This document shows, in pieces, positions 3,020-17,062 of a stretch of DNA of 25,503 nt. Each line of letters starts with the position of its first letter. Within the stretch, counting starts at the first letter, position 1. The stretch comes from a virus. Under the pieces are notes generated by a model. It searched no databases. It was not told where the DNA came from and was given only the letters and a program-made list of their open reading frames with translations. The stretch lies in the IMG/VR virus record IMGVR_UViG_3300024351_000079, positions 1 through 25,503 of that record. The stretch is one strand, 5' to 3'. The position numbers were made by a program, and so were the translations under genes.

Positions 3020-4930
3020 TTAAGCCTGTGTAGTTACAGCAATCACGTCCCAACGAGTATTGGCGGCGTTATAGATACATCCCACATAAGTCATTTTGTT
3101 GATCGTGGTGGATGTAGGTAACGTTACGCCAATTGCCGTATAGGTTGCGTTCCAAGTCAATGTTCTTGAGGTTCCGTTGTCCAAAAGCCTGAAGATCAAC
3201 TTATCGCCGTCGACAGGCGTTCCTATGGGGGCGTTGATTGTCAGGTTTGCAGCCAGTGCCGTGTACGCATAAATGTCTGCTGCCGATACGTCAGGAGTAA
3301 GTGAAGAAGCAGAAGTAGTGGATGTGACACGGGGATCAATTCGCTTGTTGGTGAGCGTTGCAGTTCCGTTGCCGGTTGTAAGACCTGCAGCAGCGTTAGC
3401 GTTTGCGGCCAAAGCAGTAGCAACCCCGGTACCCAAACCAGAAACACCGGTGCTTATGGGCAAACCAGTGGCGTTTGTAAGTGTCCCAGAAGAGGGTGTT
3501 CCAAGCGCACCGTTGAAAAGAACCACGGCCCCGGTTGAGCCAGTATTAACTGCAAGTGCAGTAGCAACTCCAGTACCCAAACCAGAAACACCGGTGCTTA
3601 TGGGCAGACCGGTAGCATTTGTGAGTGTCCCAGAGGAAGGAGTTCCAAGCGCCCCGTCAAAAAGAACTACGGCACCAGCAGAGCCAGTATTGACGGCCAA
3701 AGCAGTAGCAACTCCAGTACCCAAACCAGAAACACCGGTGCTTATGGGCAAGCCAGTGGCGTTTGTGAGTGTTCCAGAAGAGGGTGTCCCAAGCGCCCCA
3801 CCGTTGACTACAACAGCACCAGCAGAGCCGGTATTGACGGCCAAAGCAGTAGCAACCCCGGTGCCCAAGCCAGAAACACCGGTGCTTACGGGCAGACCGG
3901 TAGCATTTGTTAGCGTAACCGCTGAGGGCGTACCCAAGTTAGGCGTGGTAAGAGTGGGGCTTGTCGACAAAACAACCGAACCAGAACCCGTAGAAGTGGT
4001 CACGCCGGTGCCGCCGTTTGCCACGGGCAAAGTACCCGTAACTTGCGTAGTCAAGTCAACGTTGGAAAGCGCACCGCCAAGCGTCAGACTGCCGGAAGAA
4101 GTAACAGTCCCAGTCAGCGTAATACCGTTGACAGAACCCGTACCCCCAACAGAAGTAACTGTACCACCAGAGTTTGAAGCGGCAATCGTAATTGAGCCTA
4201 CTCCGTTTGTGATGGTGATGTTTGACCCAGCAGTCAAAGTAGCTGGGGTATAACCCATGGAGTTGCCGATCAATAGCTGACCATTGATAGGCACCGTATT
4301 CAGCCCTGTGCCTCCATTTGCCACGGGCAAAGTGCCCGTAATATCAGCCGTGCTTATATCTATTTGATCCCACGAAGAGTTTGTACCATCAGATTTGAGG
4401 TACTTACCAGCTTGACCAGTTTGGCTGGGAGCCAGCGCATTAAATGCTGCAGTTGCTGTAATTTGCCCCGTGCCCCCAGAAGTAATTGGGATGGTGTTAC
4501 CAAAAGACACCGAAGGGAAATAATTAACTGCGGAAACCACATCAGTGCCGTTTGACACCAATACAACTTTTGCTCCATTGGGGATGGCCACACCAGCCTG
4601 ACCATTCACTTTTACCGTAACAACATACCCCCCAGTAGTGTTGTTATAAATAAAATACAGCTTCTTGTTGGCGGGCACCTCGACAGTACGTGTGGCAGTT
4701 ATCGCCCCGGTAAGTTCTATCGCCATGTTTCGGGCAACGCCAGAAACGCCGTCGGGAATAGTCAATACCGTGGGCGTCGGCACATCTACTACTGTCTGTG
4801 TTACGTAGCCCGAAATGGCTTGCTCGATCAAAGTACCGAGGTTGTTATTTGTTGTAACACCCCAAGTCCCGTCTTGTTCACCAGAACCAATCAGTTCAAT
4901 GGCAAGGTTTGTGGAATAAGTGCTTGACAT
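3020..4930 (-). CDS. tail fibre protein with GGTG segments and tandem 48-residue repeats
   Basis: This 636-residue fibre has a conserved N-terminal domain (residues 1-140; YSTNLAIELIGSGEQDGTWG, then NNNLGTLIEQAISGY), which in related phages attaches the fibre to the virion. The shaft is rich in Gly, Thr and Ser with GTLPVANGGTG-type turns (about 200-210 and 300-310). Four tandem 48-residue repeats start at residues 332, 380, 428 and 476. The C-terminal domain (about 526-636) carries NKRIDPRV, PVDGDKLIFRLLDNG and YVGCIYNAANTRWDVI, a head common to many fibres. The start has GAGGA ten bases upstream. Host recognition is the expected role; the receptor is unknown. Confidence 0.82.
   Translation of the reverse strand: MSSTYSTNLAIELIGSGEQDGTWGVTTNNNLGTLIEQAISGYVTQTVVDVPTPTVLTIPDGVSGVARNMAIELTGAITATRTVEVPANKKLYFIYNNTTGGYVVTVKVNGQAGVAIPNGAKVVLVSNGTDVVSAVNYFPSVSFGNTIPITSGGTGQITATAAFNALAPSQTGQAGKYLKSDGTNSSWDQIDISTADITGTLPVANGGTGLNTVPINGQLLIGNSMGYTPATLTAGSNITITNGVGSITIAASNSGGTVTSVGGTGSVNGITLTGTVTSSGSLTLGGALSNVDLTTQVTGTLPVANGGTGVTTSTGSGSVVLSTSPTLTTPNLGTPSAVTLTNATGLPVSTGVSGLGTGVATALAVNTGSAGAVVVNGGALGTPSSGTLTNATGLPISTGVSGLGTGVATALAVNTGSAGAVVLFDGALGTPSSGTLTNATGLPISTGVSGLGTGVATALAVNTGSTGAVVLFNGALGTPSSGTLTNATGLPISTGVSGLGTGVATALAANANAAAGLTTGNGTATLTNKRIDPRVTSTTSASSLTPDVSAADIYAYTALAANLTINAPIGTPVDGDKLIFRLLDNGTSRTLTWNATYTAIGVTLPTSTTINKMTYVGCIYNAANTRWDVIAVTTQA
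3362..3937 (-). repeat. four tandem 144-bp in-frame repeats in the tail-fibre shaft
   Basis: Units at 3794-3937, 3650-3793, 3506-3649 and 3362-3505 each encode LGTPS-x-x-TLTNATGLP followed by STGVSGLGTGVATALA. The central 29-base stretch ending in CCGGTGCTTATGGGCA (plus strand) is the same in three units. The unit nearest the fibre C-terminus diverges after GVATALA. High nucleotide similarity suggests recent duplication or gene conversion. Confidence 0.85.
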
Positions 4931-7222: not shown

Positions 7223-8146
7223 TTAGGCCCACCCACCAATGTTGAGGTCTGAAGTGCCGGATATGGGGCCAAGAGGGCTAAACTTTTGCACCAACCCGTT
7301 CGATGTTGTCCAAGTTCCCGTATTTGAACCAAATGCGACCCCGGACGGATAAAACAAAAATTTAATGGTTCCGCCAACAGTCACTCTAATAGTTCCATTT
7401 ACAAAATAGCCTCTTGATTGCGCCGTAGTACCCATTGCAGCGGACGTGGTAAGCAGCGCTGAATTGCTGGTAGCTGTAGGGTCAATGATACAAAACCCAT
7501 CTGCGGTCGTATCCATATAGGTTTGCGTGCTACCAGCAACTTGACCAGATGCTCCAGCATAACAACAGGTAAAAGTTGCCCCTCCGCTACCAACCAAATG
7601 AACCTGCATTACAGGTGAAACCGCCGCTGCGCCTTTGTTATAAGGTATGTTTACTTCAAAATAATACAGAGTGTTGGCAATTACCGTGAACGCCGCGCCG
7701 TTAGAAAAATCAGTAAGGCCCAAAGTTGCGGAGGCAGAACTAGCCCCAAAAGGAGTCAAAATATCCACAAATGGTGACTCGATCAAGCCATCGTTTGCCC
7801 CAACAAGACCAGACCGCAAATACCCATCACCGTCTTGATAGATTGCTCGACCAGCAGATGTATCACAAAATACATCTTTTGTGCCTACACTGAAATTAAC
7901 TGCGCTTCCGCTGTTGCTAGAAGCTATTATTGTGTCTCTTGAAAGGGTTGTTCCCAAAGAAGTATATGTGCCAAGCCCCAATTCCCATTCGGATAACGTT
8001 TGATGGACGATTGCGTAATAGGTTGTATTTCCGTTACCAATTGAAGAAAAAGACTGAAATCCAGAACTTGCACCCAAAAGAGTAACCGTCCCCGTACCGT
8101 TAGTGGCCGTGGTTTCAAGGACTCGGTTACGGATTACAAGTGGCAT
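7223..8146 (-). CDS. tail/fibre-region structural protein, paralogue 3 of 3
   Basis: This 307-residue protein shares its first ~95 residues with the two upstream genes: NGTGTVTLLGA, GFQSFSSIGN, NTTYYAIVHQ, GLGTYTSLGTTLSR, SSNSGSAVNFSVGTKDVFC. The rest is different and beta-rich, with a distinctive VDILTPFG and a CCYAGASGQVAGST segment, and ends LNIGGWA as does paralogue 1. The gene starts eight bases after paralogue 2 with only a weak ribosome-binding site. The shared N-terminal domain is probably a virion attachment or trimerisation module and the variable part an exposed domain. That division of labour is inferred from the conservation pattern. Confidence 0.72.
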   Translation of the reverse strand: MPLVIRNRVLETTATNGTGTVTLLGASSGFQSFSSIGNGNTTYYAIVHQTLSEWELGLGTYTSLGTTLSRDTIIASSNSGSAVNFSVGTKDVFCDTSAGRAIYQDGDGYLRSGLVGANDGLIESPFVDILTPFGASSASATLGLTDFSNGAAFTVIANTLYYFEVNIPYNKGAAAVSPVMQVHLVGSGGATFTCCYAGASGQVAGSTQTYMDTTADGFCIIDPTATSNSALLTTSAAMGTTAQSRGYFVNGTIRVTVGGTIKFLFYPSGVAFGSNTGTWTTSNGLVQKFSPLGPISGTSDLNIGGWA

Positions 8147-8154
8147 ATCTAGAC

Positions 8155-9021
8155 CTATAAATACTCATCAACTTTGGCTATTCTTACATAGGAACCCGGT
8201 AACAGACTAAAGGCCGTCGACGAAAGGCTGTTCTGCACAACAGGCGTAAAATTACCGGCTGTTGATGACGTTGAAAATTGTCCAGACCCCCAAATACCGT
8301 GCGTCTGGTTTGTTTGCGCAGAACTAAAACCAATCAACTGAAGCGTGGTCGTTTGAAACACTTGATTTACAAAATTAAAAGTGTTTGCACTATTAAAATA
8401 GTTTGGCGACGTTGTATTGTATCCACCTACGCCGCCGTAAGAGATTGTCGATCCGGTGGCCGTTGTATTGAACCCAAGTCTAATTCCGTATGATGTTGCA
8501 CCCGCAGTTTTGTTAAACAGGTAACAAAAATCAAAAATGTAAAACGAGTTTGCCGCTACGGGGTAGCTAGGCGTGGCCGTAAAAACGTTTTGTATGGCTG
8601 TACTTGCAAGATACGTTATGGTTGAGGTGTTGGCAACCACAGCATACTGCATGGCAAGGCCGGGGGTCGATTGCCCAACAATAGTGTTTGGGAGCAAGCT
8701 GCTATTGTTTGTTGCGGATCTAGTGGCTGGGACAGAGCAAAACACATCTTTGGTTCCAGCGCTGAAATTAACCGCACTGCCACTGTTGCTGGAAGATATG
8801 ATGGTTGTTCTTGCTAACGTTGACCCGCTGGTTGTGTATGTACCAACCCCAGTTTCCCACTCAGTTGCGGACTGGTGAACTATTGCATAGTACGTTGTGT
8901 TTGCGTTCCCAATTGCAGACGCAAATGATTGAAACCCAGACACCGCACCGTCGAGCGTAAATGTGCCCGTGCCAGTTGTTGTGGACGTCTCTTTCACCCT
9001 GTCGGCAATAACGAACGCCAT
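8155..9021 (-). CDS. tail/fibre-region structural protein, paralogue 2 of 3
   Basis: The protein is 288 residues from the ATG that overlaps the upstream TAA (TAATG). An in-frame GTG three codons earlier was rejected because the ATG start gives MAFVIADRV, matching the start of paralogue 1. The first ~95 residues carry the shared domain (TTTGTGTFTLDGAVSGFQSF, NANTTYYAIVHQS, SAVNFSAGTKDVFC). Residues beyond ~100 are unlike the other two paralogues, and the protein ends in RIAKVDEYL instead of the NIGGWA tail. Beta-rich composition and position among fibre genes suggest a virion surface protein. Confidence 0.72.
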   Translation of the reverse strand: MAFVIADRVKETSTTTGTGTFTLDGAVSGFQSFASAIGNANTTYYAIVHQSATEWETGVGTYTTSGSTLARTTIISSSNSGSAVNFSAGTKDVFCSVPATRSATNNSSLLPNTIVGQSTPGLAMQYAVVANTSTITYLASTAIQNVFTATPSYPVAANSFYIFDFCYLFNKTAGATSYGIRLGFNTTATGSTISYGGVGGYNTTSPNYFNSANTFNFVNQVFQTTTLQLIGFSSAQTNQTHGIWGSGQFSTSSTAGNFTPVVQNSLSSTAFSLLPGSYVRIAKVDEYL

Positions 9022-9917
9022 TATGCCCACCCCCCGATGTTGATGTTACCACCTGTCGATGAGCCTATGGGTGTGATTTTGAAATACGAACCGGCTCGTA
9101 ACGACCAAGATTGGCCGGGGGAAACGTTGATGTTTAACTGCGGTGTGAACGTACCACCTGCGTTAATTAAGACGCCTCCCCTAGCAATAATGCCGGTTGT
9201 GTTTTGGGTGGTGTAGCCAGCGCGAATTTGTTGAATTGCGGTCTGCCCAGAACCAAAAACGCATGGCCCCGCATCATAAGCAGACCCAATCCCAGCACCT
9301 TGCGCCAAACTATAACCAGAAAACTGAATGCTTGTTATAGTTGCGGTACCACCCCACGCCAAAGAAATTGTGTGGGATGTTGATGTTGCCGGTTTGGTGA
9401 GCAGGTAATACAACTCAAATATGTAGAACGTCGATGCTTTGAGTGTGATTGAAGGTGTTGACGTAAACACAGCGAATGAACCCGTTTGGTTAGACGGGTA
9501 TGTAACGCTTGCTCCGTTAGAGATTATGTAATATGCGGGCAACAAATTAGGAGACGCCTGCCCCCTAAAAGCGTACCCGTTTGCGTCCTCAATTGCTAAA
9601 TTTGAGTCGTTTGTAGGGCCCGGAGCGGCCTGAACGCAGAATACCTTTTTGGTTCCCGCGCTAAAGTTCACAGCAGCGTTGCTGTTACTCGACGCAATTA
9701 CTGTTGTTCTGGCAAGCGTTGTGCCGCTGGAGGTGTAAGTACCAAGACCGACCTCCCATTCGTTTAGTCTTGTATGGACAACTGCGTAATATGTGGTGTT
9801 TGCGTTGCCAATCGCGGCAAAAGACTGAGAGCCCGAAACAGCACCGGCCAGTGTTAGTGTGCCGGTGCCTGTTGTCGTTGTAGTCTCTTGTACACGGTCG
9901 GCAACGACGAACGCCAT
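9021..9917 (-). CDS. tail/fibre-region structural protein, paralogue 1 of 3
   Basis: This 298-residue protein is first in a row of three paralogues. The N-terminal ~95 residues (MAFVVADRVQET, GTGTLTLAGAVSGSQSF, NANTTYYAVVH, LARTTVIASSNSNAAVNFSAGTKKVFC) define a domain shared with the next two genes. The middle has LKASTFYIFELYYLLTK, similar in layout to NSFYIFDFCYLFNK of paralogue 2, so the conservation may extend in weak form further down. It ends GGNINIGGWA. ATG directly abuts the TAA of the 59-residue gene upstream. It is a likely virion protein at the tail or fibre; the exact role is not known. Confidence 0.72.
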   Translation of the reverse strand: MAFVVADRVQETTTTTGTGTLTLAGAVSGSQSFAAIGNANTTYYAVVHTRLNEWEVGLGTYTSSGTTLARTTVIASSNSNAAVNFSAGTKKVFCVQAAPGPTNDSNLAIEDANGYAFRGQASPNLLPAYYIISNGASVTYPSNQTGSFAVFTSTPSITLKASTFYIFELYYLLTKPATSTSHTISLAWGGTATITSIQFSGYSLAQGAGIGSAYDAGPCVFGSGQTAIQQIRAGYTTQNTTGIIARGGVLINAGGTFTPQLNINVSPGQSWSLRAGSYFKITPIGSSTGGNINIGGWA

Positions 9918-11783: not shown

Positions 11784-12047
11784 TCAGGCCATGGGGCCGC
11801 GAGCAATACGCCCTTTAGTTGCCGCTCCGTTGCCACGAGTCTCAATACCCGTAGTTTTAGCAGCAGGGTAGTTGCCTTTGCTGAGCCCGCCAACAGATGG
11901 ATTCATTTCATTGATGCGACTAGCGCCAGTCTGCACAGGCAGAACGGTAGCGGCATCGACTTTTTTACCTTGCATTGTGTGCGGCTCGGCGTAAACGCCA
12001 GCGTCACCCACTTCTTTGCCCATCATTTTTGCGCTGTATTTGGCCAT
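11784..12047 (-). CDS. small basic phage protein with TGIETRGxGAATKG motif
   Basis: An 87-residue protein beginning MAKYSAKMMGKEVGDAGVYAEPHTM and ending KTTGIETRGNGAATKGRIARGPMA. The C-terminal segment (residues 65-80) is a variant of the D-G-I-x-x-[RK]-G-x-x-[TK]-[KR]-G motif found in three other small proteins 2-3 kb upstream. It follows a 52-residue gene by one base and precedes the head-tail adaptor. The N-terminal MAKYSxKMMGKEVG is also recurrent in phage small proteins. Function is unknown; a virion or DNA-associated role is inferred from basic charge and position. Confidence 0.65.
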   Translation of the reverse strand: MAKYSAKMMGKEVGDAGVYAEPHTMQGKKVDAATVLPVQTGASRINEMNPSVGGLSKGNYPAAKTTGIETRGNGAATKGRIARGPMA

Positions 12048-12048
12048 A

Positions 12049-12207
12049 TTAGCCTCCGCGTTGGTTCATGGCACGAGCCATGTTGCGGCCATACTTGCGC
12101 ATGGCTTCGCCGGTCACGCCGCCTTTGGCCATCTTCTTGCCATGCATGCGCTTCTCGTGTGCTTTCACTTCTTTGTCGGCGATTGCCTTAACCTGTTTCT
12201 TGTCCAT
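12049..12207 (-). CDS. 52-residue basic KGG protein
   Basis: ATG is preceded by AAAGGAG at six bases, and TAA is one base from the next ATG. The product starts MDKKQVKAIADKEVKAHEKR, continues MHGKKMAKGGVTGEAMRKYG and ends RNMARAMNQRGG. The pattern K-x-x-x-x-ADKEVKxHEKRMH followed by KGGVT and KYGRNMARxxNQ recurs in other phages as a tiny conserved protein. It is about one third Lys, Arg and His. KGG at residues 28-30 links it to the other small basic proteins of this module. Possible roles are nucleic-acid binding or a minor virion component; neither is shown. Confidence 0.72.
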   Translation of the reverse strand: MDKKQVKAIADKEVKAHEKRMHGKKMAKGGVTGEAMRKYGRNMARAMNQRGG

Positions 12208-12218
12208 TTCTGGCTCCT

Positions 12219-12602
12219 TTAAGATACCGATACTGTACCAACACTTGTCGTTCCCACCAAGTAGTTTGGGGTCAAACCCGTGTCAAAAAAACTTGCCCCA
12301 CCCACCGGGTTCCAACCCCACTGGATGTCCCGGGAACCGCCAGCGGAGAATCCGTTGACGTCCACTCCAGACGTTACATAGGTAGTATCCTTCCTTGGTT
12401 CCCGCACGGCTTGCGGGTCATCTACGGGGTACATACCTAACTGCAACTGGGGATGGTCGGGATCCCAGCACTCTTCGCATACCTTGAGCTGGTACAACTT
12501 GGTCTTGATGACCTCGTACTTTAGCTTTTTGAGCTTGAATTGCTGCCCGCAGCGGTCGCACATGGCGATACTGAACTTGCCGGACGCAAAACGATTGCCC
12601 AT
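12219..12602 (-). CDS. zinc-ribbon protein of the connector region
   Basis: The 127-residue protein has CDRC (Cys 15 and 18) and CEEC (Cys 42 and 45) separated by 23 residues, a zinc-ribbon arrangement, followed by WDPDHPQLQLGMYPVDDPQAVREPRKD, a signature that recurs in phages next to connector genes. The C-terminal third is Gly/Ser/Thr-rich and looks disordered or virion-exposed. Its ATG overlaps the upstream TAA by one base. A zinc-stabilised minor virion or assembly protein is plausible. I found no enzymatic motif. Confidence 0.7.
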   Translation of the reverse strand: MGNRFASGKFSIAMCDRCGQQFKLKKLKYEVIKTKLYQLKVCEECWDPDHPQLQLGMYPVDDPQAVREPRKDTTYVTSGVDVNGFSAGGSRDIQWGWNPVGGASFFDTGLTPNYLVGTTSVGTVSVS

Positions 12603-13537
12603 TAAGGCGTGCCCCCACCAATGAACTGCTGACGAGGCACAAACCGAACTGCGGCTTTCTCTCGGTCTTCGCCAGCGGCCAGCTCAAACTGCTCCATGTA
12701 GGCCATCTTGAGCATTTCAACACGCTGCATCAACTCAGGCACTTTCATGGCAATGTGGTACGCCAAACCTGCCGTAACAGCGGGCAGGAAGCGGAAATTC
12801 ATGTCGGCAATCTCAGCACCAGCCCCAGCATCCTGCACTCGGCGCATGCGCCAGTAAGCAAACGTATATGTCGTGGTGTTGTCCGGAGTTGGCCAAACTG
12901 TGATGGCGGGGAGCTGATTCCAATACACGGGGGTGTTGGACGCATGTGACGCAACGGTTGTGCCATTCTGAGCCCGAACACAGCCATTCAGGGTATTCCC
13001 TGAGATATATTGGTAAAAAATGGTTTCAATACCAAGATTTATGTACCCAAATGCGGGTAAACCCTCGGTAGAAGACAAGGTGATTGTGGTGTCAGAAGTG
13101 CCAATCGAGACCGCCAAAGTGGCCCCAGTGGGGTTCACATTGCCCGAATAGCGCTGAATCCAGACCTGAATCGGTCGGCCTTGAGCTAATTTGTTAGGGA
13201 TCGTAGCGTACGTAGAAACACTAATACGCGTGATGTTTAGATCTGCCTGCGTAGACGCTGTGTTTGCGCCCGTACGTATAACATGCTCAAGCAAATCGAT
13301 GGTGTCGGTCGGCAGTGGGTAGGTGTTCAAGCCAGCTTGCAACGTGATTGTGCCCGGCTCAATCGTCCACATGTTGATGCCACGGTTCGCCCACTCAATG
13401 GTCATCAAGTTCATGGAACGACGAGCAGTACGCAGGTCGTAACCAGAACGCATTTCACGGCCAGCACGCTCCCACGCTTCCTCGGCTATTTCCGTGAAGT
13501 CAAGGTTGAAGAGTGCTGTACCGGTAGTATTTGCCAT
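12602..13537 (-). CDS. head-tail connector / tail-tubular-type protein
   Basis: This 311-residue protein has an N-terminal helical part (DFTEIAEEAWERAGREMRSG, then TARRSMNLMTIEWANRGINMW), a strand region with YPLPTDTIDLLEHVI, then RISVSTYATIPNKLAQGRPIQVWIQR, typical of phage connector or tail-tubular proteins. About residues 136-205 form an inserted beta-rich domain (DTTITLSSTEGLP...NTLNGCVRAQNGTTVASH) whose NTLxGCxRxxxGTxAxxH pattern also occurs in tail fibres. The C-terminus returns to helices (AYHIAMKVPELMQRVEMLKMAYMEQFELA). ATG directly follows the upstream TAA. The role is inferred as joining portal, adaptor and tail. Confidence 0.72.
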   Translation of the reverse strand: MANTTGTALFNLDFTEIAEEAWERAGREMRSGYDLRTARRSMNLMTIEWANRGINMWTIEPGTITLQAGLNTYPLPTDTIDLLEHVIRTGANTASTQADLNITRISVSTYATIPNKLAQGRPIQVWIQRYSGNVNPTGATLAVSIGTSDTTITLSSTEGLPAFGYINLGIETIFYQYISGNTLNGCVRAQNGTTVASHASNTPVYWNQLPAITVWPTPDNTTTYTFAYWRMRRVQDAGAGAEIADMNFRFLPAVTAGLAYHIAMKVPELMQRVEMLKMAYMEQFELAAGEDREKAAVRFVPRQQFIGGGTP

Positions 13538-13789
13538 TTACTTGCCCTTTGCGGCTCTCATGTTGTCAATGAGGTTTGGGTACGGACGACCAGCGGCTTT
13601 TGCCGCAGCTTTGGCACTTGCTTTCTTGGCGGGGCTAAGTTTTTTGTGTTTCTTAGCCGGATTGGGGGTATCCCAAACTTCTCCGCCTTCGGCAAACTGA
13701 TCAAAATCAGTGTCATCCCGGCGGGCTTTACGCTTCGCCTTGGGCATTTTGCTGGGCATTACAGCGCCCATACCACGGCTGGCCATCAT
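13538..13789 (-). CDS. 83-residue basic protein with histone-H1-like Lys/Ala tail
   Basis: The start at 13789 is chosen because it forms an ATGA overlap with the upstream gene; a longer frame begins 24 bases earlier within that gene. The N-terminal 26 residues are Met/Lys/Arg-rich; DDTDFDQFAEGGEVWD (27-40) carries an EGG version of the local KGG motif, and AKKHKKLSPAKKASAKAAAK (45-64) looks like the Lys/Ala tails of linker histones, ending AGRPYPNLIDNMRAAKGK. It may bind DNA or pack inside the head. Family unknown. Confidence 0.62.
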   Translation of the reverse strand: MMASRGMGAVMPSKMPKAKRKARRDDTDFDQFAEGGEVWDTPNPAKKHKKLSPAKKASAKAAAKAAGRPYPNLIDNMRAAKGK

Positions 13790-14085
13790 TTTTTGGCCAT
13801 TCCACCACCGCACATGACGATGGTTCCACGAGTTTTACCCCGTTGGGCGATGCCGTCGGCGCGTTTGGAAGCAGTCATACCGCCCTTGGCGTAACGGTCG
13901 GGAGACGGCATGATTTGGTTGTAGGTAGCCCCTGCAGACTCGCTAGCAGCAGCGTCCTTGACCTCTTGCAAATCCTGTTCACGACGTTTGCGCTCTTCAG
14001 GCGTCACAACATCTTCCAAAGTCGTCCCGGGACGCCGGGGTTTGTACCGGCGTTTCATTTCCTCTTTGGACATCATATTGGGCAT
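13786..14085 (-). CDS. 99-residue basic protein with KGG and RADGIAQRGKTRG motifs
   Basis: ATG has AAGGAG seven bases upstream. The N-terminal half is very charged (KEEMKRRYKPRRPG, PEERKRREQDLQEVKD) and likely helical. The C-terminal part has AKGG (66-69), SKRADGIAQRGKTRG (73-87) and MCGGGMAKK. The second motif is nearly identical in protein sequence to residues 74-88 of the 91-residue protein encoded at 14736-15011, while the two DNA stretches differ at most third positions. This points to selection on the peptide and not to a recent copy. Function unknown. Confidence 0.68.
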   Translation of the reverse strand: MPNMMSKEEMKRRYKPRRPGTTLEDVVTPEERKRREQDLQEVKDAAASESAGATYNQIMPSPDRYAKGGMTASKRADGIAQRGKTRGTIVMCGGGMAKK

Positions 14086-14094
14086 GTTGGCTCC

Positions 14095-14499
14095 TTAGCA
14101 GGCTTTGCCGCCTTTTTTCATGCCTTTGTTACCGGGCATGACGATTTGTTTGCCTTTGGTGTGGCCTTTGGAGACAATGCCGTCGCGGCTGGGGGCAGCC
14201 GTACGCACTTTGCCCATGGCGCTGGGCTTCACAGAACCGCCTTTTTTCATAGCTTTCATTTCAGATTCCTCATGTTTGATCATGGACTTGGGGGCACCTT
14301 TAGCTTTCATGAAGCCAACTTCTTTCTTCACCATCGCTTTAGATTCTTTCATCTCTCCACCTTTTGCAAATTTTTGGCCTTTATCGGCCTCTACGTATTC
14401 CTTGCCAACCTTTTGTGGGATGCCAAGGCGCTTTGCTGCGGCGGGATCATGAGCGACCATCGCCATCAGATTGTGTTGTTTTTTGCTAGTTGAGGGCAC
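14095..14499 (-). CDS. 134-residue Lys-rich protein, DUF3008-like N-terminus, three KGG motifs
   Basis: The start is a GTG with AGGA eight bases upstream, inside a 14-base overlap with the upstream gene. This gives MPSTSKKQHNLMAMV, matching the conserved start of DUF3008-like small proteins (P-x-x-S-K-x-Q-x-x-x-M), followed by AAKRLGIPQKVGKEYVEADK. The rest is Lys/Met-rich with KGG at residues 46-48, 86-88 and 129-131 and SRDGIVSKGHTKGK (104-117), a third version of the local DGI motif. It ends in Lys-Ala-Cys. Charge and repeats suggest nucleic-acid binding or a virion-internal role, both inferred. Confidence 0.7.
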   Translation of the reverse strand: MPSTSKKQHNLMAMVAHDPAAAKRLGIPQKVGKEYVEADKGQKFAKGGEMKESKAMVKKEVGFMKAKGAPKSMIKHEESEMKAMKKGGSVKPSAMGKVRTAAPSRDGIVSKGHTKGKQIVMPGNKGMKKGGKAC

Positions 14500-14734
14500 T
14501 TCTCTGTTCCTTCATGAAGTCATCGATCTTCTTTTCTAGCCGATCCAACCTGTCCAACACTCGGTTGATGTCGGTGTGGACTTCCTGTTTGGTCACATAC
14601 TCCTTGGCGATTTCCTCGCGCGTTCGGTTGAGGAGTATCTGCACCCTTAGAAGTTCCGCAGACTTCTCTCTCAAGCTCCATCCGAGAAGCCCAAGAAATG
14701 TAGTCAGCAAGGCGTTCCATATCATCAGTTCCAT
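14486..14734 (-). CDS. 82-residue membrane-anchored coiled-coil protein
   Basis: An N-terminal hydrophobic segment (MELMIWNALLTTFLGLLGW) is followed by a long charged helix with TREEIAKEYVTKQEVHTDIN and a clear coiled-coil stretch (VLDRLDRLEKKIDDFMKEQ, about residues 58-77). Similar proteins with R-E-E-I-A-x-x-Y-V-T-x-x-E-V are common in phages and are usually unannotated. It is one base from the upstream stop and lies inside the run of small basic genes. It could be a lysis accessory or virion ejection component. There is no direct evidence for either. Confidence 0.65.
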   Translation of the reverse strand: MELMIWNALLTTFLGLLGWSLREKSAELLRVQILLNRTREEIAKEYVTKQEVHTDINRVLDRLDRLEKKIDDFMKEQRSALN

Positions 14735-14735
14735 T

Positions 14736-15011
14736 TCAGATCATCCGACCCTTTGTTTTACCACGTTGGGCAATTCCATCAGCACGTCTGGAAGCAGATG
14801 CCACTTTGCCACCCTTTTTCATTGTTGGGTTACTCCTATTTGGAGGAACGGGGTTAGGAGGCGCAACGGGTGGCCTATACGGAGTAATTTGATCCGGCGC
14901 AACAGGTGGTTTTGAAGGAGGAACGGGGTTAGGAGGCGCAACGGGTGGCCTCAACGGAGTAATCTGATCCGGCGCAACAGGCCGTTTTGCTGGAGTTTTT
15001 GCGCGTATCAT
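14736..15011 (-). CDS. 91-residue proline-rich protein with KKGG and RADGIAQRGKTKG motifs
   Basis: GAGGA at seven bases precedes ATG. Residues 10-59 are two copies of a 25-residue proline-rich unit (VAPDQITP-x-RPPVAPPNPVPP). KKGG follows at 65-68 and then SRRADGIAQRGKTKG at 74-88, the motif shared with other small genes in this module. The extended proline arm next to a basic motif could tether the motif to a surface or act as a flexible linker. No known family is recognised for the whole protein. Confidence 0.66.
   Translation of the reverse strand: MIRAKTPAKRPVAPDQITPLRPPVAPPNPVPPSKPPVAPDQITPYRPPVAPPNPVPPNRSNPTMKKGGKVASASRRADGIAQRGKTKGRMI
14835..14984 (-). repeat. tandem 75-bp repeat coding a proline-rich arm
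   Basis: Two adjacent 75-bp units (14910-14984 and 14835-14909) differ at only a few bases. Both read VAPDQITP then RPPVAPPNPVPP. High nucleotide similarity indicates a recent in-frame duplication. Confidence 0.85.
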
Positions 15012-15020
15012 CTTAATTCC

Positions 15021-15281
15021 TCAACAGTTCCATGCTCTCAAAGACTTGTTGATGCGTGAATCCGGATCTTTTTTGGCTTTTTCACCAGTCAGCTTGGACT
15101 TCATCCCTTCCATACGAGCGCAGAAGGACGCACGGCGTCCGGCGTCTTTCTTTGTCTTTGGGTTGGGAGCAGGGGGCTTTAAGTTCATCCCCTGCTTTTT
15201 GGCAGAGGCGCGGCCCTTGGCGTTCAGTCCGCCTTTGGGGTTCTTGCCTTCTGCTCGTTGCCATGCTGGTGACTTAGCCAT
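15021..15281 (-). CDS. DUF6321-like small conserved phage protein
   Basis: This 86-residue protein has MAKSPAWQRAEGKNPKGGLN, AKGRASAKKQGMNLKPPAPN, SFCARMEGMKSKLTGEKAKKDPDSRINKSLRAWNC. The order of WQRxEGKNPxGGLNAKGRAS, LKPPxP, SFCARMxGMKxKLT and DPDSRINKxLRxWNC is a well-conserved full-length signature in many phages, and the length is normal. It overlaps the upstream gene by 8 bases. Strongly basic, with two conserved Cys. It is located among head-completion genes; function is not known. Confidence 0.8.
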   Translation of the reverse strand: MAKSPAWQRAEGKNPKGGLNAKGRASAKKQGMNLKPPAPNPKTKKDAGRRASFCARMEGMKSKLTGEKAKKDPDSRINKSLRAWNC

Positions 15282-16153: not shown

Positions 16154-17062
16154 TTAGGCTCCGGGGGAGCCGTAGACGCCCAGCGGATCCGAGACGCCGA
16201 AGCTGTAACGCTCACGGGCCTTGTAACGGACGTTGCCGGTGTCAAAGTCGCCGTCCATGCCGGTCGACATCGGGGTACGCACAAAGTGCTTCAGACCGTT
16301 GGGAACGTCGGTGGTCAGGAACCATGCGTTCGGGTCGGTCAAGAAGTGGTTAATGGTAAAGCCCTCGGGGACAGAACCATTGTTCTTCAGTGCGTTGATG
16401 TCGTTGTCATTGGTACCGACACGGAGTTCGGTTTCCAACAGACGGGTGGCCACGAACTGCAGTGCCGGGGGCACAATCAGTTTGCGGGGCTTGGCAGCGA
16501 TCAGCAGACCACGTTCGTCCGTCCACGCAGCGATCTGAATCACGGCGTTTTCCAACGAAGTTTCGTTCAGGTCAGCAGCCACAGCGGGGGTGTTGCTGTT
16601 AACACCGCCACTGATCAGGGGGTGCTGGGTGCTGAACAGGGTCTGACCGTCACCGTAGGTGGGGCCACCAGCGAAACCGCTATTCAGAATAGCGGCGGCT
16701 TTGACCTGCTTGGTGTAGGCCATCGCACGAGCCAGAGCCTTGGTGTAGCGGCTAGACAACGAGTCGTACAGGTTATCTTCGATCGCCTCTTCGGTGATCG
16801 AGAAGCCCATAGCGATGGTCTCGTGTGTATAGCGAGCTGTCCAAGCTTCTTGCGCGTTGTCGTACTGGATCGCACTGCCTTCGTTCTTCACCGGAGCGGC
16901 GGAGAAGCCAGACAGCTTGGTTTCCTCTTCGAACGAACGCTCGGAAGTCTCGGTCTCGTAGATTTCCTTGTGTTCCTCGCCGTAGCGAGCATACTCCAAA
17001 CCAAACAGGGCGTTCAAGCCGGGCAGGAGTTCTTTCAGTAGTTGGGCACGAGAAATTGCCAT
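16154..17062 (-). CDS. major capsid protein (gpT-like, HK97 fold)
   Basis: This 302-residue protein is the main shell subunit. AAGGAG eight bases before ATG gives strong expression. It has the Mu gpT-like features: an N-terminal helix (LLKELLPGLNALFGLEYARY), an E-loop-like acidic stretch (ETETSERSFEEETKLSGF), TARYTHETIAMGFSITEEAIEDNLY, then DGQTLFSTQHPLISGG, IAAKPRKLIVPPALQFVATRLL, NAWFLTTDVPNGLKHFVRTP and the final RYKARERYSFGVSDPLGVYGS. All parts are present and the length is normal. It follows scaffold and decoration genes and is closed by a terminator, so the whole head operon could end here. Confidence 0.9.
   Translation of the reverse strand: MAISRAQLLKELLPGLNALFGLEYARYGEEHKEIYETETSERSFEEETKLSGFSAAPVKNEGSAIQYDNAQEAWTARYTHETIAMGFSITEEAIEDNLYDSLSSRYTKALARAMAYTKQVKAAAILNSGFAGGPTYGDGQTLFSTQHPLISGGVNSNTPAVAADLNETSLENAVIQIAAWTDERGLLIAAKPRKLIVPPALQFVATRLLETELRVGTNDNDINALKNNGSVPEGFTINHFLTDPNAWFLTTDVPNGLKHFVRTPMSTGMDGDFDTGNVRYKARERYSFGVSDPLGVYGSPGA

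Follow-up and report, generated by a model that had tools for sequence, protein, structure and literature searches.

Why should several small and otherwise dissimilar genes in the head-neck block of a phage end in almost the same peptide? The question is raised by positions 11784-15011 of the IMG/VR record IMGVR_UViG_3300024351_000079, a tailed phage genome fragment that was analysed as the complete record of 25,503 bases (the window). An earlier note on this DNA had described six small genes there with common KGG/EGG and DGI motifs. Our analysis shows that unrelated, fast-changing, low-complexity proteins of the head block end in one peptide, hereafter the tag, which is kept at the peptide level, and that this tag is restricted to one capsid lineage of aquatic phages. 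We give an even chance to the reading that it is a portable virion sorting or docking tag of that lineage, by which its carriers would be incorporated into the virion through a presumed binding partner.

All six small genes are indeed present, on the minus strand:

14736..15011, minus strand: tagged protein 1, 91 residues; a proline-rich arm with two 25-residue repeats, then the canonical tag KKGGKVASASRRADGIAQRGKTKGRMI at the C-terminus, 3 residues from the end
14095..14499, minus strand: tagged protein 2, 134 residues, GTG start; an N-terminal helical domain (phrog_16759), the tag variant SRDGIVSKGHTKGK and a KKGGKAC end
13786..14085, minus strand: tagged protein 3, 99 residues; a helix-rich/disordered N-terminal part and the tag ASKRADGIAQRGKTRGTIVMCGGGMAKK
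13538..13789, minus strand: small basic protein with EGG, without tag; its C-terminal half corresponds to phrog_34011 and it has no DGI motif
12049..12207, minus strand: small KGG protein, 52 residues, GRNMARAMNQRGG end; only KGG in common with the tagged genes
11784..12047, minus strand: small conserved protein whose C-terminal motif TTGIETRGNGAATKGRIARGPMA is related to the tag; it represents one orthologous family of the lineage

The motif D-G-I-x-x-[RK]-G-x-T-[KR]-G, one of those described for the group, occurs in its strict form in only three of the six genes, the other three lacking it. As a DNA pattern the strict motif has exactly three matches in the window (13826-13857, 14153-14184 and 14749-14780), all on the minus strand, and none in 100 shuffles of the window. 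The duplicated proline-rich arm of 14736-15011 is encoded by a 75-bp tandem repeat (window 14842-14989, 2 copies, 93%).

Searching IMG/VR with the tag as a degenerate DNA pattern returned at least 120 viral contig stretches, among which 120 loci form the tag-selected sample for the results on position and capsid conservation. The contigs are mostly fragmentary and gene starts are heuristic. The tag consensus comprises about 20 residues, x-x-K-G-G-x-V-x-S-A-S-x-R-A-D-G-I-A-Q-R-G-K-T-[RK]-G-[KR]-M-V, with the KGG stretch upstream of the motif and a net charge of about +6. In 237 of 372 motif-bearing open reading frames the motif lies exactly 3 residues from the C-terminus; the remaining frames mostly carry an extra end of 10-20 residues, e.g. 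TMVMCGGGMAKGK or KGGKAC. An alignment of 226 type-A tags shows D, G, G, T and G to be essentially invariant (about 100%), and most other core positions exceed 70%. At the basic positions K and R interchange, and at the third motif position I and C alternate.

Once the tag is removed, the 338 N-terminal parts of at least 25 residues fall into 113 sequence clusters, 86 of them singletons, and the larger clusters are mosaics of short modules. These variable parts (the cargo) are rich in A, K, G, R, P and E, contain little Cys (0.1%) and Trp (0.2%) and are largely of low complexity. The suggestion that a shared tag sits behind quite different N-terminal halves is thus strongly supported, with 113 N-terminal clusters, one motif and one genomic slot. 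An unbiased comparison of termini within loci points the same way, yielding 19 strong C-terminal pairs of 12,819 versus 2 N-terminal and 0 shuffled ones; in sister lineages this comparison gave almost only tail-fibre-like repeats. A chance origin is ruled out by the window shuffles and the N-terminal controls.

When 113 cargo representatives were scanned with Pfam, PHROGs and NCBIfam, little emerged beyond DUF6321, phrog_16759 and marginal matches, and these scans do not support enzymatic effectors as cargo. Two tagged proteins (L113:5351-6043 and L123:4798-5217) contain a DITHAYRNMSQAEYEAAKKSG... domain that looks ADP-ribosyltransferase-type by eye and has no family match. Membrane-inserting ejection proteins were rejected as general cargo, a hydrophobic 19-mer (KD ≥1.2) being present in a minority of representatives (12/113, shuffled cargo giving a mean of 2.7 and a maximum of 6). 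For the protein of 14095-14499 the label "DUF3008-like" had been proposed; it has no Pfam match up to E 0.1, and its N-terminal domain is phrog_16759 instead, with relatives in phiKZ-like phages, e.g. PHIKZ165.1 of phiKZ. AlphaFold models of 14095-14499 and 13786-14085, built on alignments with few homologues, have low confidence and show no structure for most of the tag. A sequence search of solved structures found no relative of tag, capsid or adaptor and, for the 14095-14499 protein, only an insignificant match (E 0.08).

Two side observations concern the ends of these proteins. Cys, near-absent from the cargo, recurs at or near the last tag residue (GKMC, KGGKAC), e.g. in 14095-14499. Moreover, 30 of 357 tagged proteins (e.g. 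in L042, L050 and L175) have an N-terminal M-K-rich-[YF]-x-x-GG motif (MKKKAKRYQEGG) that mirrors the KGG linker.

Is the repeated end a product of DNA copying or of selection on the peptide? As the earlier note had stated, the first two peptides are near-identical despite synonymous change: the 11-residue peptides of 13786 and 14736 differ solely by K/R, while synonymous changes separate 6 of their 10 same-residue codons. Among all within-locus tag pairs (328), 54% of the codons for the same residue differ, compared with 59% expected for independent codons. In the two alignable families the ratio of nonsynonymous to synonymous differences (pN/pS), which is rough with synonymous differences near saturation, is lower in the motif than upstream of it (0.12 versus 0.52 in the 11784 family, 0.26 versus 0.42 in the 14095 family). 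Because of the synonymous near-saturation and the lower motif pN/pS, we conclude that the tag is kept by selection on the peptide and not by recent copying, in agreement with the selection proposed before. Recent duplication, gene conversion or a recombination site that shuffles the fronts could also produce repeated 3' ends, with a peptide that has no role, and the mosaic cargo and hypervariable slot are what a recombination hot spot would be expected to leave. We nevertheless give next to no credence to such a DNA-level cause, since within a genome the tag codons are nearly saturated while the peptide is kept, and tag pN/pS is below that upstream; DNA repeats or gene conversion as the origin of the tag are contradicted by the near-saturation. 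IMG/VR contigs may hold near-duplicates, so that locus counts do not equal independent events; the near-saturation and the 86 singleton cargo clusters are independent of such duplication.

The position of the tagged genes is described relative to the following features, all within the window:

16154..17062, minus strand: major capsid protein (Phage_capsid_4), the most conserved gene of the lineage and candidate tag partner
15021..15281, minus strand: DUF6321 protein, upstream edge of the slot
14486..14734, minus strand: untagged membrane-helix and coiled-coil protein inside the cluster; a similar protein is seen by eye in DSL-LC04
12602..13537, minus strand: SU10/Pam1-type head-tail adaptor, downstream edge of the slot

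In the tag-selected loci, tag and marker genes are on the same strand in 1612 of 1612 pairs, and at least one lineage marker gene accompanies the tag in 118 of 120 loci, the other two being shorter than 1.7 kb. The tags share a single slot bounded by DUF6321 and the adaptor; the capsid gene lies ~2.8 kb before them, and the adaptor follows ~1.5 kb further on. When loci are picked by capsid instead, the strict tag is present in 29 of 33 with enough sequence, and the remaining 4 have recognisable tag variants in the same slot, e.g. YKKGGKVRGAGCAKKGVRPCKMM. The DUF6321 orthologue is itself tagged at its C-terminus in seven loci. The expectation of multiple motif copies beside connector genes was borne out: near-complete genomes (about 50-68 kb) hold one to five tag matches each, in the slot adjoining the adaptor and within a few kb of the capsid gene with one exception. 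The sole positional outlier, G006:22647, fits the 12049-like family with N-terminal tag.

In cellular genomes, phage records and plasmids the tag is scarce. In 84,980 bacterial and archaeal species genomes the degenerate pattern was found on one contig, which lies in a metagenome bin and has four tagged genes. No match to the consensus tag was obtained by tblastn (E 10) among 50,697 phage records, which include giant phages, or among 72,556 plasmids; one divergent copy among the phage records, in Planktothrix phage Pag-Yong1, was found by pattern and confirmed with a tag profile. A literature search found no paper with the motif strings, and among the matches listed the short string GTGAATRG is the sole one to occur, in papers on unrelated subjects. 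The capsid lineage comprises at least 600 related contig stretches and is abundant in water metagenomes but nearly absent from culture collections.

Tag presence follows capsid similarity. Excluding the tag-selected loci and counting identity to the window capsid, the tag is present in 0/54 loci below 74%, 3/10 at 74-78%, 3/14 at 78-82%, 4/6 at 82-86% and 31/37 above 86%. In the tag-selected loci, median identity is highest for the capsid (85%), followed by terminase (TerL, 65%), portal and adaptor (61%) and scaffold (44%). The capsid of Pag-Yong1 is 75% identical to that of the window, other named phages reaching 67% or less, whereas its terminase is only 48% identical, compared with 58% and 54% in untagged relatives. 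A universal tag of the wider group was rejected, as the DSL-LC04-like and HTVC027P-like lineages are without it.

Some neighbouring lineages show ends of their own. DSL-LC04-like genomes have the end KGG..KGQGR..KKTR; in L209-L223 and DSL-LC04 (L124), which comprise DSL-LC04-like and some other contigs, three different N-terminal parts are followed by a GG..KGQGR..KKT end placed exactly 3-4 residues before the C-terminus. L386, with 79% capsid identity and without the usual tag, encodes two different neighbouring proteins (2173-2466 and 3517-3864 after the capsid start) with the common C-terminus ENYNDQVKRKFGGGKL, possibly a replacement tag. In L313, a pelagiphage-type locus, two adjacent proteins encoded ~3.5 kb ahead of the capsid gene have the ends GGLIDMTKMSYGV and GGLMDMTKMSYDI, a candidate shared end.

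What might the tag bind? A DNA-binding role is possible, but the invariant D, G and T, which are uncharged or acidic, and the fixed C-terminal distance favour a specific protein partner. The capsid protein is the first candidate because the tag follows the capsid lineage, the capsid is best conserved and Pag-Yong1 is nearest by capsid; we infer that it may be the partner. According to the reading we favour, the tag would bind one conserved site of the head, for which the major capsid protein (inner face) or the prohead core is the likeliest place, and any protein gaining the tag would be placed in the particle during assembly, the KGG stretch presumably serving as flexible linker. With less confidence, the variable parts may be internal virion proteins, some of which would leave with the DNA. 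Its action would resemble that of the T4 capsid-targeting sequence or of encapsulin cargo-loading peptides, except that the tag is C-terminal and probably not cut off. Of the three jobs suggested in the earlier note, prohead sorting or docking at head or neck would fit best, while a processing site at Gly-Gly finds no support: 11 near-complete genomes yielded no S78 or ClpP-type prohead protease, and conservation of the tag extends to its last residues. A model of the S77 protease had no match in near-complete genomes, but none in control genomes either.

Sorting into the head is consistent with the N-terminal domain of the tagged 14095 family, which also occurs in families annotated as virion structural proteins (besides phrog_16759, the 14095-14499 protein matches the N-termini of two such families). 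The tag can also shift to the N-terminus, as in the relatives of 12049-12207 in L154, L155, L165 and L104, and encapsulin loading peptides can do likewise. Several points weigh against this reading. Variant-tag loci (L132, L145, L194 and L203) have ordinary capsids of 86-91% identity, and comparing them gene by gene with canonical-tag loci, no single partner gene stood out. Conservation of the capsid gene may have other causes, and the slot beside the adaptor is equally compatible with neck docking. Finally, the cargo is almost without recognisable domains that would point to an injected effector.

Docking at the neck or on the outer shell is the main rival. Here the tag would anchor accessory proteins such as decoration or neck fibres to the adaptor, the portal vertex or the outer capsid. 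In nearly all loci the adaptor gene directly follows the tagged genes, decoration-type genes often come after the capsid gene, and the extended proline-rich arms of 14736-15011 would suit a surface appendage. On the other hand the adaptor is only about 61% conserved in the tag-selected loci while the tag is nearly invariant, Ig-like, fibre or carbohydrate-binding domains were not found among the 113 cargo representatives, and low complexity prevails in the cargo; we consider such docking unlikely. Binding of phage DNA by the basic C-terminus, in the service of packaging or condensation and with the variable parts as spacers or modulators, is suggested by the charge of the tag, by ends rich in Lys, Arg and Gly and by T4 internal proteins, which touch DNA via lysines (PMC3012670). 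Yet K and R swap freely at the basic positions, in contrast to the conserved D, G, I/C, A and T, and charge alone explains neither the fixed C-terminal distance nor the restriction to one capsid lineage, which makes a nucleic-acid-binding tail quite improbable.

The tagged proteins might also stay out of the virion, the tag recruiting them to a phage-made complex or a host target late in infection. Many of them are of low complexity, which is common in takeover proteins. Takeover genes usually reside in early regions, however, whereas all tagged genes lie in the late head/neck block, on the same strand and nowhere else in the genome, and we hold this explanation to be highly doubtful. As an extension of the head-sorting reading, the capsid or prohead core would read a C-terminal, uncleaved peptide code and so load the head with an exchangeable set of fast-evolving proteins. 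Phages would then have their own equivalent of encapsulin loading peptides, with an origin separate from the T4 targeting sequence and with replacement tags in neighbouring lineages; this we put forward tentatively, as possible but somewhat short of probable. One tag already accounts for many orphan genes of the lineage, as it unites unrelated hypothetical proteins in one set on the basis of their last 20 residues. Should the tag load heads, a short code for placing foreign proteins in these capsids would be at hand, and sequence alone would suffice to list which proteins of uncultured phages are candidates for injection.

How does the tag compare with known systems? The internal proteins of T-even phages are highly diverse, only their capsid targeting sequence (CTS) being conserved (PMC3012670). 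The likeness to the CTS of IPI-IPIII lies in a short conserved peptide on otherwise diverse small proteins, here with 113 N-terminal clusters. The CTS is N-terminal and cut off by the prohead protease, whereas nearly all tagged proteins carry the tag at the C-terminus (the exceptions, with an N-terminal tag, are some 12049-like relatives) and the near-complete genomes show no S78/ClpP-type protease; moreover, the tagged genes lie inside the head-neck block, and capsid lineage and sequence are different. Cargo-loading peptides of encapsulins are short, usually C-terminal but sometimes N-terminal, and sufficient for loading (PMC7355545). They resemble the tag as terminal peptides shared by unrelated cargo whose genes adjoin that of an HK97-fold shell, a likeness of setting and position in which binding of the tag to the phage shell would be the presumed parallel. 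In contrast, encapsulins are cellular compartments, while the window encodes terminase, portal and adaptor. The tag system hence belongs to neither, since position or setting differs. In phiKZ-like giant phages (e.g. SPN3US) many different head proteins are likewise sent into one capsid, but a prohead protease is employed there (PMC7411985), and the consensus tag is unmatched in their records. Also close is the hypothetical protein UMO75986.1 of Pag-Yong1 with its YASGGMIGRDGCAKRGRTKGRFI end, whose motif is three residues from the C-terminus and whose gene lies between minor capsid and portal-adaptor genes; it is a single tagged protein, in a phage whose capsid has the 75% identity to that of the window given above.

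The motif of 11784-12047 is treated separately, as it reads RG-NGAA-TKG where the tag has RG-K-TKG. The string TTGIETRGNGAATKGR of the earlier note falls in a single orthologous family with the consensus KTSGIKIRGTGAATKGVMARGPMA and 90 unique members. Aligned by eye, DGI-x-x-RG-K-TKG-x-M and [DST]GI-x-x-RG-TGAA-TKG-x-M differ mainly in the TGAA stretch, and grouping this family's motif with the tag on that alignment appears reasonable. A broader RG-x-G-A-A-x-[KR]-G C-terminus is present in neighbouring lineages, including two HTVC023P proteins.

The minus-strand order of the window, with some gene names given by position relative to DSL-LC04, begins with terminase small (by position) and large subunits, portal, a glycosyltransferase-like gene, a GroES-like protein and a putative scaffold. 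Two more head genes, the major capsid protein, a cement-like gene, a 92-residue protein and the DUF6321 protein follow, then the small-gene cluster, the SU10/Pam1-type adaptor, a small protein with two Cys pairs, two further small proteins and the tail genes. The capsid matches Phage_capsid_4 and Mu-like gpT, and from family knowledge we take it to have the HK97 fold. By portal, the isolated or assembled relatives are Pag-Yong1, Pelagibacter phages HTVC023P and HTVC027P, Roseobacter phages CRP-901/902, DSL-LC04 and Caulobacter phage RW. The GenBank phages OL906435.1, OQ594354.1 and PP438419.1 bear the names of different cyanobacterial hosts; all three have 65,014 bp and the same portal match, so that their host labels may be unreliable. 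In the tail region (window 7223-9917), the consecutive proteins of 7223-8146, 8155-9030 and 9021-9917 have similar starts (e.g. MAFVIADRVKETSTTTGTGTFTL and MAFVVADRVQETTTTTGTGTLTL) and look like tandem paralogues.

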